Source of the DNA: Chloroflexota bacterium
GTDB taxonomy: Bacteria > Chloroflexota > Dormibacteria > CF-121
Length of the DNA: 47,951 nucleotides
Reading direction: 5' to 3'
NCBI GenBank assembly: GCA_005881215.1
Contig: VBDZ01000010.1
Span: forward strand, 1 to 47,951
Shown here: piece by piece, positions 8,703-47,617 of the stretch
Numbering within the stretch: position 1 is the first letter of the stretch
Layout of the letters: the number at the start of each line of letters is the position of its first letter
Notes under the pieces: generated by a model
What the model saw: the letters and a program-made list of their open reading frames with translations, nothing else
Told to the model about the DNA's origin: nothing
Database searches by the model: none
Program-made: the position numbers and the translations under genes

Positions 8703-8740
8703 GCTCCCTCCCCCTTGTGGGGAGGGTCGGGGAGGGCGTC
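8703..8740 (+). repeat. Interspersed G-rich palindromic repeat, copy 2
   Basis: CTCCCTCCCCCTTGTGGGG followed by AGGGTCGGGGAGGG. The arms CCCTCCCC/GGGGAGGG form a strong hairpin. It lies between the convergent PHP and fusion-hydrolase genes and may also act as a bidirectional terminator. Confidence 0.7.
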
Positions 8741-42312: not shown

Positions 42313-43239
42313 TCAGCGAGCGATTCGCTCGATAACCTGGGCGAAGCCGTCGAGGTCTTTTTCGAAAACGGTGATCGATGAGATGCCGAGCTGTTCGCGG
42401 CGACGCTCGAGCGTGGACGCGACCTCCTCGACGCTGCCGATCAGGACGAGCGGCGAGACCAGTAACTGATCCGCCGGCTGCTTCCAATTGGCCGACAGCG
42501 TCCGTGCGGCGGCATCGCGATCGCTGGTCACGGTGACGGCTTGCACCAGGGTGTTGAGCTCCAATGTCGAGAATCGATCGCCCGCGGCTTCCTTGATCCA
42601 GGCGACCTTTACCCCAAAGGCCTGCTCCGTCGCGTCCGCAGTATCTAGCCCGCTGCCGTCGGCGCGGGAGCGCGGCATGAGGCTGACCACGTCCGCTTCT
42701 TTCGCCGCGAGTGTGAGCAGACGCCGCCCGCCGCCGCCGATGGTCAGCCGGGGATGCGGCTGCTGCACGGTCTTGAAGCCCGCCGTCAGCGCCTTCACCT
42801 GGTAATGCCGCCCGGTGAACGTCACGGGGTCCCCCGTGAGCAGCCGCTTGATCAGCTGAACCGCCTCGGTCAGCCGTTCAACACGGGTGCCACCCGGATC
42901 GAATCGAAGGCCGGCGGCGTCATACTCGCTCTTCAACCAGCCGGCGCCGATGCCAAATTCGAAACGGCCCTCGGTCAGCAGGTCGATGGTGGCGACCTCC
43001 TGGGCCAGCAGCGCGGGGTGGCGGAAGTCGTTGTCGTAGACAAAGCTGCCGACGCGCAGCTTCGACGTCGCCTCCGCGGCGAGCACGAGCGCCGGGGCGA
43101 TCGCCGGGCGGGCACCGAAATGGTCGGAGATCCGCAGGCTGTCGAACCCCATGGACTCGACTTGCCGAGCGAAGGCCATCCACTCGACCTTCGGCCGCGG
43201 GTGATGGGTACTGAGGCCGAACCGAAACGGACGGGTTAT
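42313..43239 (-). CDS. LLM-class F420-dependent oxidoreductase
   Basis: About 308 aa. Luciferase-like TIM barrel: GFDSLRISDHFGARPAIAPAL, EFGIGAGWLKSEYDAAGL and GGGGRRLLTLAAKEADVVSL, matching the TIGR03621 F420 group. The family's first strand (TRPFRFGLS) is encoded upstream of the first ATG (43179), so the true start must be earlier. The best candidate is ATA at 43239, which overlaps the stop of the upstream gene as ATAA, the geometry of ATGA couplings here. If ATA is not used, the gene starts at 43179 and lacks strand 1. Coupled to the LeuA-like fusion gene. Confidence 0.87.
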   Translation of the reverse strand: MTRPFRFGLSTHHPRPKVEWMAFARQVESMGFDSLRISDHFGARPAIAPALVLAAEATSKLRVGSFVYDNDFRHPALLAQEVATIDLLTEGRFEFGIGAGWLKSEYDAAGLRFDPGGTRVERLTEAVQLIKRLLTGDPVTFTGRHYQVKALTAGFKTVQQPHPRLTIGGGGRRLLTLAAKEADVVSLMPRSRADGSGLDTADATEQAFGVKVAWIKEAAGDRFSTLELNTLVQAVTVTSDRDAAARTLSANWKQPADQLLVSPLVLIGSVEEVASTLERRREQLGISSITVFEKDLDGFAQVIERIAR

Positions 43240-44144
43240 TGCGGAACAGGCTCCCTCCCCTTCGTGGGGAGGTCGTCAATCTCCCTCCCCCTTGTGGGGA
43301 GGGTCAGGGACCGGGTAGGCCGTACCAGCCAGTTGAGCGCATTGACGTACGCGTTGGCCGCCGCTTCGACCACGTCGAGCGCCACCGCCCGGCCGACGAC
43401 GACGTTCGAGCCCTGGCTGAGCGTCACCACGGCTTCGCCGAGCGCATCGCTGCCCTGGGTCGCCGCCGCCAGGCTGAAGTCTTCGAGCTCGGCCTGCACG
43501 CCGGTTACTTCCTGGATGGCGCGGAAGACCGCGTCGAGCGTCCCGTTCCCGGTCGCCCGGGCAGTCGAGATGGTGCCCTCATCACTGACGGAAACCTCGG
43601 CGGAGCTCGAAACACCGCTTTGTGCGTTGACCTGCACGTCGCGCAACGCAAAGCGTCCGGGTGTACTCCGGCCGAGTGCTTCCTCCGCGGCGAGCTTCAA
43701 GTCTTCGGCGTAAAGCGCGCGCTTGCGCTCGGCCAGGCTGAGGACCAGAGGGTAGACCGACCCGAGCTGTTCTTCGTCCAGCTGGATTCCCATCGAGGAG
43801 AGTTCTTCGGCCAGGCGGCGCCGGCCCGCCGTGGTGCCGACCTGACCGAACTGCGGCGCGTAGCCCAGATCTGCGGGGTCGATGAACGCCGGCACGATCG
43901 ACTTCGGACGGCGCGGCGGACTGAAGACCGTAGTGGGAAAGACGGCCCGGACTTCTTCGATCCACCGCTCCCAGCCGGAATAATCCATGGTGGCGAGCAT
44001 CGCGACGTAGGCGTCGAAGCGAACCAGCAATGCCGCCGGCTGCTCGTGATGTTTGATGATGAGTGTGGTGCCGCTTTCCTCCAACGCTTGCAGGATGGGA
44101 TCGAGATTACGCGCCAGTTCGGGAGCCGAAATGACTTTGAGCAC
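43236..44144 (-). CDS. Phd/YefM-like domain fused to the regulatory C-terminus of 2-isopropylmalate synthase
   Basis: 302 aa, GTG start 6 nt after a TACGAT -10 box, so probably leaderless. Residues 1-50 look like a Phd/YefM antitoxin-type DNA-binding fold (VISAPELARNLDPILQALEE then TTLIIKHHEQPAALLVRFDAY). Residues 100-155 match the linker domain after the LeuA barrel (TTAGRRRLAEELSSMGIQLD then AERKRALYAEDL). Residues 165-273 match the LeuA dimer/leucine-binding domain (SGVSSSAEVSVSDEG, GNGTLDAVFRAI, GSDALGEAVVTL, AANAYVNALN). There is no catalytic barrel and no substrate motif. The last 23 residues come from two palindromic repeats. Likely a ligand-responsive regulator, not an enzyme; function is inference. 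Confidence 0.72.
   Translation of the reverse strand: MLKVISAPELARNLDPILQALEESGTTLIIKHHEQPAALLVRFDAYVAMLATMDYSGWERWIEEVRAVFPTTVFSPPRRPKSIVPAFIDPADLGYAPQFGQVGTTAGRRRLAEELSSMGIQLDEEQLGSVYPLVLSLAERKRALYAEDLKLAAEEALGRSTPGRFALRDVQVNAQSGVSSSAEVSVSDEGTISTARATGNGTLDAVFRAIQEVTGVQAELEDFSLAAATQGSDALGEAVVTLSQGSNVVVGRAVALDVVEAAANAYVNALNWLVRPTRSLTLPTRGREIDDLPTKGREPVPQ
43250..43312 (+). repeat. Interspersed G-rich palindromic repeat, copy 4 (double)
   Basis: Two copies in tandem: CTCCCTCCCCTTCGTGGGGA (43251-43270) and CTCCCTCCCCCTTGTGGGGA plus GGGTCAGGG (43281-43309). They form the last 23 codons of the LeuA-like fusion gene, whose tail then reads LPTRGREIDDLPTKGRE. Confidence 0.8.
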
Positions 44145-44149
44145 GACGT

Positions 44150-44155
44150 CATCGT
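44150..44155 (-). promoter_or_regulatory. -10 box of the LeuA-like fusion gene (leaderless)
   Basis: TACGAT on the minus strand, then GACGTC, then the GTG at 44144: six bases between -10 and start codon, as in the rhodanese gene and promoter copies 1 and 2. The divergent lipoprotein gene starts at 44172, so both promoters share about 28 bp. Confidence 0.45.
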
Positions 44156-44171
44156 AGACCCGCGCTCGACT

Positions 44172-45347
44172 ATGGTCAAACGCCTTCGTTGGTGGATCGT
44201 GGTCGGATTCCTGGCGATCACGAGCGCCTGTCAGTCGACGCCCACGGCGCCCTCACCCACGCCCAGTCCCAGTCCGTCCGCATCACCGCTAGCCGCCTGC
44301 CCAGCCATACCCGCACCGACCGCGCCACAGTTCCTGCTCCAGAATCAGCCGGCGCCCGATGATCTGGCGTTCGACAGCCACGGCCGTCTGCTGATCAGCG
44401 ACATCACAGCCGGCACCGTTTCGGCCCTGAATCCGGACGGATCGGTCGAGCGGATCGCCGGCGGTCTCTCCGCCCCGGAGGGTATCGTGCTCGCCGCCGA
44501 CGGGCGCATCCTGATCGCGGAGCAGGGCCGTAATCGCATCGTCGCCATCGACGCGCAAACGCATGCCGTCACCCAGTGGCGTACGTTTCCAAACCGGACA
44601 GGACAAGACGGGATTGACGGCATCGGCCCTGTGCTTCCGGCTAAAGACTCCCTGGGCAATCTTCTCCCGACCGGTGACAACGTGATCGTGCCGGACAGTC
44701 CAAACGGTGTGGTCTGGCGGGTCAGCGCCGACGGAAAGAGCGCGACCCAGATTGCAAGTGGGATGGTGCGTCCGGTGGGAGCGGCCGTCGACCGCAATGG
44801 GCGGACCTTCGTGGCCGACGAAGGTGGAACGCTCTGGGTCCTCGATCCGTCGAAGCGTCGGTTCGCCACGCTGCCAACCCCCGACGACGTCTTAGTCGGG
44901 CGAGGCGGGCACATCTTCGTCAACACCCTTGGCGACAACGCGATCCATGAGCTCGATGGCCAGGGCCACCAGGTCAGCGTCATGTCCGGAATCCAGCAGC
45001 CGCAGGGGATTGCGCTCGACGACGCGGACAACCTCTACTACACCGAATTCCTGAAAGGTCGGGTTGCGCGCGTGGTGCGGACTTTCGTCCTCGACCCGGC
45101 GAAGGTAACGCGTACCGCGCCGGGGCGATACCTGATCTGTCCGGTGATCCGGCGAGCGCAGAGCTTCACCAGTCCACTCAGCCTCCAAGCCGGCTCGGGT
45201 CTCACCACATCGATCCTTCGCCTCGTGCAGCCAGGTACGGGCTCATCGGGCGCACTGGAGGTGGAGACACCCGATCGATCGATCGGGATCTTGGTCAGCG
45301 ATGGTGGCCTCTTATCGCAATCGCAGAGCGTTCCCCTGTCGCCGTGA
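44172..45347 (+). CDS. Lipoprotein with NHL/SMP-30-like beta-propeller
   Basis: 391 aa. Lipobox AITSAC at residues 15-20, Ser/Pro-rich spacer (21-45), then a six-bladed propeller (about 50-310) with repeated DDLAFDSHGRLLISD, PEGIVLAADGRILIAEQGRNR, PVGAAVDRNGRTFVADEGG and PQGIALDDADNLYYTE. The remaining 80 residues form a separate beta-rich domain. No conserved SMP-30 metal residues can be named, so enzyme activity is uncertain; ligand binding at the outer face of the membrane is likely. Its stop is 1 nt from the convergent rtcB stop. Confidence 0.84.
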   Translation: MVKRLRWWIVVGFLAITSACQSTPTAPSPTPSPSPSASPLAACPAIPAPTAPQFLLQNQPAPDDLAFDSHGRLLISDITAGTVSALNPDGSVERIAGGLSAPEGIVLAADGRILIAEQGRNRIVAIDAQTHAVTQWRTFPNRTGQDGIDGIGPVLPAKDSLGNLLPTGDNVIVPDSPNGVVWRVSADGKSATQIASGMVRPVGAAVDRNGRTFVADEGGTLWVLDPSKRRFATLPTPDDVLVGRGGHIFVNTLGDNAIHELDGQGHQVSVMSGIQQPQGIALDDADNLYYTEFLKGRVARVVRTFVLDPAKVTRTAPGRYLICPVIRRAQSFTSPLSLQAGSGLTTSILRLVQPGTGSSGALEVETPDRSIGILVSDGGLLSQSQSVPLSP

Positions 45348-45348
45348 C

Positions 45349-47025
45349 TTATTCAGTTCCCTTGATCGACGCCAGGGGCACCAGCTCGTGCTCGATGGTT
45401 GCCAGACCCGCTCGGGTTACGGCTTCGACGACCTCGCGCGACGATTTGTAGCAATCCTTCGATTCATCGATCGGAACCACGCCATCGGTGTTCACGATGA
45501 TGCCCGCGTCTCGGTAAGCGGCATTCACCTCGTCTTGTTTGAGGCCTCTCTTCGCTGCGTTGCGCGACATCCGGCGGCCAGACCCGTGGTTGACGCTGTA
45601 GCCGCTGACTTGAGCGTGTTCCGCGGCTCGGAGGATGAAACTCGAGTCACGATTACTGCCAGGGATGAGGATGGGATGCCCCGCTTGCGGGTCATCGTAG
45701 CCGGCGGGAAACGCGCGCGTTGCCCCCTTGCGGTGGACATGGACCCAGCCGAACTCGGGATGATGTTCCCGCTGGACCAGGTTGTGACTGATCTCGTAGA
45801 CCAGGGATAGCGGCTTACCGAAGACCTCTTCGAAAGCGATCGCGATCTGCTCGAACATGGCGAGCCGGTTGACAATCGCGAAGTTTCCGCCGGCCGCGAC
45901 CGCGTTCAGATAGTCGCGATAGTGTGCCGACTGCGGGGTGAAGTAGCCAAGGTCGAGCGCCTTGATCGCCGGATTCTCCGCCTTCGCCAGGTGGAAATAG
46001 TTGGTGGCCAACCCGTGGCCGAAGCCGCGGCTGCCAGAGTGCAGCTGCACATAAAGCGTGTCGCTACCCAGGTTGCCCTGGAGTTCGATGAAGTGATTGC
46101 CGCCGCCCAGCGTCCCCAGCTGCGGGATCCCGCGCTCCGGTCGTCCCGGACCACCCCATGGGGGCTGCCAGGAGTCATCGACCGGGAGGCGGTCGCGTTC
46201 CGCGCGTGTCCGGTCCACCCGCTCGCCATAGTGCTGGGCGTAGTAGGCGGCGCCGCCCCGGATGATCGCCTCGAATTGGTTCTGCGTCAGGGTCTTCAAC
46301 CGCGTGCGGCTGACCTTGCCCGGTCCCAGCGCCACTCGCCGCGTGACCTCCTGATTGAAGCGCCGACGATTCTGCGGCGTCGCGGCGGCGACCGGGACCT
46401 CACTCGAGGCGCTCATCATTCCGCAGTTGTGAACGAAGACCCCGGCATCCAGGGCAAAGTTGCCGTATTCGGGCACGGTCAGACAATAGACATCCTCATG
46501 ACCATCGATAACCTCAACGGAAGCGACCTTGTGGTTAAAACCGTGCCGCCATCGTCGGTGATTGTTGATGCCAAACCCGCCGACGACTGACTCGCCGCAG
46601 CTCTCGCAAAGATGGGTGAGATGGGCGACCTCAGACGACTTCGCTCGACCACGTTCGCTCTGGTTGTAAGCAAGGAGGAACGCTTTCCCGCGCTCGCCTT
46701 TGCCAGCGACCGATTGCCTGAAGTGCTCAGGTCGCTCGCGCATGTAGCGCTCCAGGTTGGCCGTGCCCCTAAGGGCGAAATAGAGGCGCCCCTCAGGAGT
46801 GCGTGCCTTTCTGGCTAAGGCTGCCAGTCTTGCCGGTTCAAGCCTGTCGCGGTGACGGGCGATATTATGTCGCCCGTTTTGATGGTGGTACCGGATATGG
46901 TCGCGGTCTCCCATGAACTGCAAGTTGTCGGGGCGGCAATCGTCCGGCGTGAAGTTCTTGTGATGAATGACCGTGCGCTGGCCGGGGAAGGACGGAATCT
47001 GCCCCATTAAGGAGGCGATAGCCAC
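45349..47025 (-). CDS. rtcB: RtcB RNA ligase: intein C-terminal half plus C-extein
   Basis: Residues 1-200 of this frame finish an intein: HNH-type VIHHKNFTPDDCRPDNLQFM and a C2H2-like zinc finger (HLCESCGESV then NNHRRWRH), then splicing blocks F and G (DVYCLTVPEYGNFAL, VFVHN). Splicing would join to Cys+1 of CGMMSAS. The C-extein (358 aa) has the RtcB core: LGTLGGGNHFIELQ, LHSGSRGFGH, SHNLVQREHH, ILIPGSNRDSSFI, VNHGSGRRMSRNAAKRG. RtcB joins 2',3'-cyclic-phosphate RNA ends to 5'-OH ends using GTP and Mn. It is out of frame by one nt with the upstream part. If translated alone, starts at ATG 47007 or GTG 47025 are possible. Confidence 0.88.
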   Translation of the reverse strand: MAIASLMGQIPSFPGQRTVIHHKNFTPDDCRPDNLQFMGDRDHIRYHHQNGRHNIARHRDRLEPARLAALARKARTPEGRLYFALRGTANLERYMRERPEHFRQSVAGKGERGKAFLLAYNQSERGRAKSSEVAHLTHLCESCGESVVGGFGINNHRRWRHGFNHKVASVEVIDGHEDVYCLTVPEYGNFALDAGVFVHNCGMMSASSEVPVAAATPQNRRRFNQEVTRRVALGPGKVSRTRLKTLTQNQFEAIIRGGAAYYAQHYGERVDRTRAERDRLPVDDSWQPPWGGPGRPERGIPQLGTLGGGNHFIELQGNLGSDTLYVQLHSGSRGFGHGLATNYFHLAKAENPAIKALDLGYFTPQSAHYRDYLNAVAAGGNFAIVNRLAMFEQIAIAFEEVFGKPLSLVYEISHNLVQREHHPEFGWVHVHRKGATRAFPAGYDDPQAGHPILIPGSNRDSSFILRAAEHAQVSGYSVNHGSGRRMSRNAAKRGLKQDEVNAAYRDAGIIVNTDGVVPIDESKDCYKSSREVVEAVTRAGLATIEHELVPLASIKGTE

Positions 47026-47329
47026 CGCGGGCGAGACGGCTGTAGAAAGGCATTAGGGAGGTGCCGGGCGAGAGCGATCGTGCTTCATGCCAACTTCCGT
47101 CGCGAAGCATGAATTGGTGGTCGGGCGTGCAATCGATCGTCGCGCCATTGTCGAGCGTCACGCGAACGAGTGCCGCCCTGCGCCGGGTCAGCTTCGCAGT
47201 AGCCTTGGCCGCGACGACCCGATGCTCCGAGGTGAGGGACAAGATCCAGTGCTCGCCGCCTGTGTCAGCTAGATCCCGGAGGGTCCGTGGCCCGTCGAGC
47301 GTCGATACACGAGTGCCTCCCGTGAAGCA
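46426..47329 (-). mobile_element. Intein with HNH endonuclease inserted in RtcB
   Basis: 904 nt, 301 codons plus one extra base. Cys1 (47329) to Asn at 46426 with Cys+1 downstream. Blocks A, B, F and G are present, penultimate His in VFVHN. An HNH-like endonuclease and a C2H2 finger lie between the splicing halves, so it is, or was, a homing element. The insertion splits the conserved GYDIG-C metal-ligand motif of RtcB, a typical intein hot spot. Confidence 0.9.
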
Positions 47330-47617
47330 GCCGATATCGTAGCCGACAGGACCCAGCGCCACGGCACCCGACTGCGCGTCGGTTAGTAGCGCCGTGCCAA
47401 TTGGGACGCCATAACCATGGTGAACGTCGGGCGTGATCGCCACCAGTTTCACGCCGGGAAAGGTCGCGGCATTGACAATCTGCGGATAGATCGACTCCTC
47501 AAGTTGATCGAGGAGGTTGGCTGTTAGGAAGAGCCGCACCGGGACTGACCCGATGGCCTCGGTATGCAACGTGTAGTAGCCGTAACCCGAATCTTTTACC
47601 GCGAGCTTCCAAGTCAA
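46865..47617 (-). CDS. rtcB: RtcB RNA ligase: N-extein plus intein N-terminal half
   Basis: TTG start 47617 (MTWKLAVKDSGYG). Residues 1-96 are the N-extein with ITPDVHHGYGVPIGTALLTD and GPVGYDIG, the metal-site motif that Cys97 of the intein interrupts. Residues 97 on are intein: block A CFTGGTRVSTLDG and block B LDNGATIDCTPDHQFML (TxxH). In-frame intein similarity continues to about LMPFYSRLARGGYRLL; after that the frame leaves the expected sequence and reads a non-intein tail to the stop at 46865. A 1-nt difference near 47000-47010 breaks the gene. Either a sequencing error, a pseudogene, a programmed shift or a split intein. Confidence 0.85.
   Translation of the reverse strand: MTWKLAVKDSGYGYYTLHTEAIGSVPVRLFLTANLLDQLEESIYPQIVNAATFPGVKLVAITPDVHHGYGVPIGTALLTDAQSGAVALGPVGYDIGCFTGGTRVSTLDGPRTLRDLADTGGEHWILSLTSEHRVVAAKATAKLTRRRAALVRVTLDNGATIDCTPDHQFMLRDGSWHEARSLSPGTSLMPFYSRLARGGYRLLNGADSVLPRPAHGHSSQELHAGRLPPRQLAVHGRPRPYPVPPSKRAT

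Follow-up and report, generated by a model that had tools for sequence, protein, structure and literature searches.

Control of 2-isopropylmalate synthase (LeuA) by leucine is textbook allostery within one polypeptide. The leucine binds a pocket at the dimer interface of the regulatory domain (PMC11057210). Other pathways pair a short catalytic enzyme with a separate feedback subunit, as in IlvN/IlvB and in HisZ/HisGS, the latter an established case (PMC9734150). The Phd/YefM/RelB/VapB antitoxins (PF02604; 3g5o, 2a6q, 4zm2, 6jqy) are a further point of reference; YefM cannot bind DNA without its residues R10 and R31 (PMC4803016).

In some soil Chloroflexota, the leucine-sensing domain is encoded by its own gene on an antitoxin-type fold, and their LeuA mostly lacks that domain. 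This suggests that feedback control is supplied by a separate protein. We found no description of a free-standing LeuA regulatory domain in the open-access literature, which does not imply that none exists elsewhere. The window (the whole 47,951-nucleotide stretch of contig VBDZ01000010.1 that was analysed) carries one such fusion gene with the following parts:

43236..44144 (-): Phd-LeuA_dimer fusion gene, 302 aa, GTG start; orthologues 68-91% identical, dN/dS 0.03-0.11
43986..44144 (-): Phd/YefM-fold domain, residues 1-53 (b-a-a-b-b-a); PF02604, PDB profile matches, Foldseek
43935..43985 (-): helical DxxxWExW module, residues 54-70; D54, W58, E59 and W61 invariant in 14 members, dN/dS 0.033
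43665..43883 (-): LeuA linker subdomain II, residues 88-160; HCS_D2 and LeuA models, match to 6e1j
43320..43664 (-): LeuA leucine-binding (dimerisation) domain, residues 161-275; PF08502, Foldseek match to 3fig, pocket residues as in LeuA
43239..43319 (-): non-conserved C-terminal tail from a dispersed repeat; repeat search, alignment

The gene is an uninterrupted 302-codon frame from GTG, and its product joins a dimer domain of Phd/YefM type to the sensing domain of LeuA in one self-standing protein, without the enzyme. LeuA_dimer (PF08502) matches residues 145-273 (E 3.4e-29, 101.8 bits against a curated cut-off of 24.9) and is found by Pfam in all 18 fusion members. The Pfam linker model HCS_D2 covers residues 88-141, and residues 88-276 correspond to positions 316-504 of the NCBIfam LeuA equivalog model (E 1e-39). 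Linker II, the bbba-bbba leucine-binding domain and the pocket-framing residues are thus shared with the LeuA regulatory domain (PF08502; 3fig, 1sr9). The fusion differs in being encoded separately and attached to a Phd-like dimer domain, with the TIM barrel (PF00682), the catalytic linker I and the TTLRDG, HCHND and SGIHQDG motifs all absent by Pfam and NCBIfam. Residues 276-302 are not conserved and derive from a dispersed repeat. The 22-bp element CTCCCTCCCCYTYGTGGGGAGG has three copies at window 8704-8725 and 43251-43302. Two fall within the 3'-terminal part of the fusion gene and encode the non-conserved tail, and the LeuA proteins of relatives end in similar tails.

The N-terminal domain is more divergent in sequence. 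Taken alone, this protein matches PF02604 over residues 3-54 with E 4e-4 and 20.4 bits, below the cut-off of 29.8. Sixteen of 18 fusion orthologues match the same model at E<=0.1 (best 7.6e-6), and a family profile of the N-terminus searched against the PDB retrieves the Mycobacterium tuberculosis RelB proteins (RelB, RelB1) and Escherichia coli YefM; a phmmer search of the PDB with the single sequence gave no match. An AlphaFold2 model from 18 orthologues (mean pLDDT 78) runs b-a-a-b-b-a-a, followed by the linker II helices and two bbba units. Its top Foldseek match is leucine-bound LeuA (3fig, E 2e-8), and the CimA regulatory domain is also matched. Modelled separately (pLDDT 74.5), the N-terminus aligns with RelB, YefM, Phd and VapB46 with TM values on the target that reach 0.87; the small size of the domain keeps the E-values weak (best 5e-3). 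Nearly all of the best 50 matches are Phd/YefM/RelB/VapB antitoxins, and no other fold comes near the top. A sequence-only reading of the locus had proposed a 302-aa frame with a Phd-like N-terminus and a LeuA domain but no enzyme. Profiles, AlphaFold2 and Foldseek confirm that architecture, and structure prediction, Foldseek and the orthologue profile uphold the Phd-like fold.

Residues 1-53 therefore share the fold of the antitoxins, and the DxxxWExW helix would sit at the place of their toxin-binding helix. Both features fit a type II toxin-antitoxin antitoxin with an added ligand domain, but the fusion lacks the toxin gene, the disordered toxin-binding tail and the YefM arginines, and it carries a ligand domain. 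No toxin-like gene lies beside it in the window or at any of the relatives' loci read, and the fusions form a single vertically inherited clade. We consider an antitoxin function very improbable, and a toxin-antitoxin module was dropped for want of a toxin gene.

The two-domain architecture recurs in relatives. It is present in 17 of 18 genomes of the same family (f1), where complete orthologues are 68-91% identical, and in family f3 of the same class, where six genomes carry it at ~35-41% identity, giving 23 carriers in two families. All fusion sequences form one clade (support 99/100) that is split by family. Among the matches listed for 400 genomes sampled across the phylum, the fusion occurs only in this class; the other strong matches listed are ordinary long LeuA proteins that start at profile column ~74-87 and have no N-terminal domain. 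A scan for close relatives in 84,980 species genomes returned Chloroflexi contigs only. Within the genus the gene is under strong purifying selection (dN/dS 0.03-0.11). Selection is strongest on residues 2-70, with 0.036 in the Phd core and 0.033 in residues 54-70, against 0.081 in linker II and 0.108 in the LeuA domain.

These data bear on whether the gene is simply a truncated, decaying or mis-assembled leuA, a worry that the sequence-only reading had raised itself. The source metagenome-assembled genome (MAG) does have frame errors elsewhere, in its leuA on contig C62. Against this, 23 genomes in two families share the architecture, dN/dS is low, the promoter is conserved and relatives keep an intact separate leuA, and no relative couples this N-terminus to a LeuA barrel. 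A broken leuA is thus excluded, and we give it practically no weight.

The residues that frame the pocket are the same in the fusions and in the phylum's type 1 LeuA: GxGxLDA, L/V220, F223, A/S227, T229, GxDA and E237, in a numbering transferred from the CimA regulatory domain. Since these residues match LeuA and leucine binds the interface pocket of the LeuA regulatory domain, leucine is the likely ligand of the fusion, judged from sequence. Isoleucine, valine or a keto acid may be bound instead. The regulatory domain of Leptospira CimA (3f6g/3f6h) shares the fold (TM 0.67-0.72 on the target), but the fusion groups with LeuA type 1 in sequence, has Phe rather than Tyr at position 223 and occurs only in genomes without CimA.

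The state of LeuA in the carriers points to a possible partner. The sequence-only reading had pointed to a separate full-length leuA as the thing to look for. A separate leuA is indeed present, but it is short and lacks exactly the leucine-binding domain. In the source genome (MAG 88% complete), the fusion is the single LeuA_dimer domain detected, and leuA lies on another contig in an operon of a ThDP enzyme, ilvC, leuA and ilvE. This leuA (contig C62) is broken over at least three frames and intact in relatives; the breaks are likely assembly indels. Family f1 relatives with a readable end encode an intact LeuA of ~385 aa that stops directly after linker II, and in most of those read the leuA stop overlaps the ilvE start (TGATG). 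The short LeuA of relatives retains the TIM barrel (PF00682) and the TTLRDG, HCHND and SGIHQDG motifs and is catalytically complete. One carrier in which the module and short LeuA co-occur, G059, has a short leuA frame with ~33 residues missing, including the catalytic SGIHQDG motif, through either a genuine deletion or a fault of the assembly.

Of the 23 carriers, 19 have no detected LeuA_dimer domain besides that of the fusion, and none encodes a full-length type 1 LeuA. Short LeuA and fusion occur together in family f1 and in the carriers G059 and G104, and four f3 carriers (G033, G041, G100, G109) have a full-length LeuA2 and no short LeuA. Short LeuA also turns up in genomes that have no fusion (most of family f3, f4 and one f2 genome), so it does not need the fusion, and it arose more than once or was regained. 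A strict pairing was rejected on both counts. In this class, type 1 LeuA commonly lacks the leucine-binding domain (f3, f4 and the one f2 genome), and some of these proteins have a conserved His-rich C-terminal tail, HNHVADTLRHLIFG.

The DxxxWExW helix follows the same division. Its D54, W58, E59 and W61 are invariant in all 14 aligned members with the module (f1, G059 and G104), and the module is missing from the four carriers with only full-length LeuA2. This match fits a contact between the helix and short LeuA. The four members without the module form one clade (96/69), so the co-variation probably represents one evolutionary event.

We propose that the fusion is a free-standing sensor of leucine (or branched-chain amino acids) that acts in trans. 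Its Phd/YefM-fold N-terminus would stand in for the lost TIM barrel as the part that forms the homodimer, holding two copies of linker II and the leucine-binding domain together so that leucine could bind at their interface as in LeuA. The most likely target would be the separate short LeuA, itself devoid of a leucine-binding domain, and docking could occur through the conserved DxxxWExW helix. The fusion would then be a regulatory subunit that exerts feedback control on LeuA, much as HisZ does on HisGS. The likeness to HisZ/HisGS and IlvN/IlvB is an analogy of plan only: their folds are unrelated to the fusion, and the interaction with LeuA is putative. The architecture, the fold, their conservation, the lack of the domain in LeuA and the kept pocket are observed; that the protein binds leucine, dimerises and touches LeuA, and in which direction control runs, we infer.

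As a specific assignment, a leucine-sensing allosteric partner of short LeuA is our tentative choice. It draws on a LeuA that ends after linker II, on the fusion as sole LeuA_dimer domain in 19/23 carriers, on the LeuA-like pocket with 3fig as best structural match, and on a DxxxWExW helix seen only where LeuA is short. The loss of the YefM arginines, the lack of any operator or neighbourhood conserved across families and the failure to find the acetohydroxyacid synthase (AHAS) small subunit PF10369 in the own genus point the same way. Against it stand short LeuA without the fusion elsewhere, the four carriers without short LeuA and the position of the gene, which was never found within a leu/ilv operon. 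The Phd fold is also classically DNA-binding, and an N-terminus under the tightest constraint within the genus would suit a transcription factor too. A split isopropylmalate synthase, in which LeuA has lost its regulatory domain and leucine feedback comes in trans from a Phd-dimerised subunit, is possible but slightly more doubtful.

The same sensor might act on a partner other than LeuA, such as the operon's ThDP enzyme, another branched-chain enzyme or an unrelated protein, with the partner changing between families. The fusion persists in the four carriers without short LeuA, and its N-terminal module is remodelled between families in the alignment. The regulatory AHAS subunit of IlvN type (PF10369) was found in 0/15 own-genus genomes, though it is present in many relatives; this absence rests on one Pfam model. 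Fusion and CimA are mutually exclusive (CimA in 0/23 carriers against 63/87 non-carriers; Fisher p 6e-11, not corrected for ancestry), but the exclusion may reflect shared ancestry. No genomic link ties the fusion to any specific partner, and we regard this alternative as unlikely. The own-genus (g1, family f1) ilv operon begins with an unusual ThDP enzyme, and control of the branched-chain pathway in this lineage may be unusual in general.

The remaining alternative concerns DNA. The relevant elements lie upstream of the GTG:

44151..44156 (-): -10 element TACGAT, 6 nt before GTG; TA..AT conserved in position
44174..44179 (-): -35 element TTGACC, in 12/12 species; unique in the window, overlaps the initial codons of the lipoprotein coding sequence
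44172..45347 (+): divergent NHL/SGL-repeat lipoprotein gene; neighbour in family f1 only

The promoter reads TTGACC-17-TACGAT-6-GTG. The -10 box six bases before the GTG had been placed correctly by the sequence-only reading, which missed the -35 element 17 bp upstream; from the -10 position, the transcript would be leaderless. The upstream regions of 12 species retain GTTTGACC-17-TA..AT-6/7-GTG and nothing more, and inspection by eye of these 12 regions revealed no conserved operator-like palindrome. The same reading had the -10 box overlap the gap shared with the lipoprotein gene, a possible target. It caught half of the arrangement: the -35 element lies over that gene's first codons. The lipoprotein gene was rejected as a target: it adjoins the fusion in f1, within a block that is syntenic throughout, but does not do so in f3. 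There the neighbours are riboflavin genes or methionine (metE-like) genes, as read from clear genes only, with an arbitrary 0.7 GC3 filter for open reading frames that let some wrong ones through, and hence no common target is suggested.

A leucine-responsive transcription factor, as originally proposed, would hold an operator with its Phd/YefM dimer, and leucine on the LeuA domain would change its affinity. It would act on its own promoter, on the divergent lipoprotein gene or on genes for branched-chain amino acids. One-component regulators usually combine a DNA-binding fold with a ligand domain, and the fold here is shared with antitoxins that bind DNA, among them P1 Phd, whose structure was determined together with its operator (4zm2). 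The strongest purifying selection also falls on residues 2-70 (dN/dS 0.033-0.036). However, in the profile alignment the equivalents of YefM R10 and R31 are Ala11, an alanine in all f1 members, and His32. A basic residue occupies the R10 position in 2/18 fusion members and the R31 position in 3/18. Arg12 and Lys31 adjoin the lost positions, so this sequence-level argument against DNA binding is not decisive. The missing palindrome, the neighbours that differ between families and a PucR-like gene already divergent to the ilv-leu operon also count against a transcription factor, which we consider somewhat unlikely. Of the original proposal, the reuse of LeuA's allosteric domain next to a dimer domain of Phd/YefM type stands, and the transcription factor becomes one of two comparable readings. 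We favour a trans-acting leucine-sensing regulatory protein over it because of the LeuA-like pocket, the lost arginines, the lack of a conserved palindrome and the varying neighbours.

If the fusion acts on LeuA, it offers a direct test of domain signalling without covalent attachment, and a split synthase would be new both as a way to control leucine synthesis and as a use of the Phd/YefM fold, neither having been reported. Should the fusion bind DNA instead, it would be a leucine-responsive regulator of a kind for which we found no description in the open-access literature. Either way, it would provide a compact leucine sensor that can be tested in E. coli.

An RNA leader in the ilv-leu operon was rejected, as Rfam gave only a downstream SAM riboswitch. 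In family f1 (three loci), this riboswitch lies just after ilvE, ahead of an apparent threonine synthase/aspartate-family cluster. Beyond the lipoprotein gene, window 45349-47617 (-) encodes the RNA ligase RtcB with an intein that has an HNH-like part and runs over two frames, with the break near 47025. At the same place, several relatives carry an rtcB without an intein.
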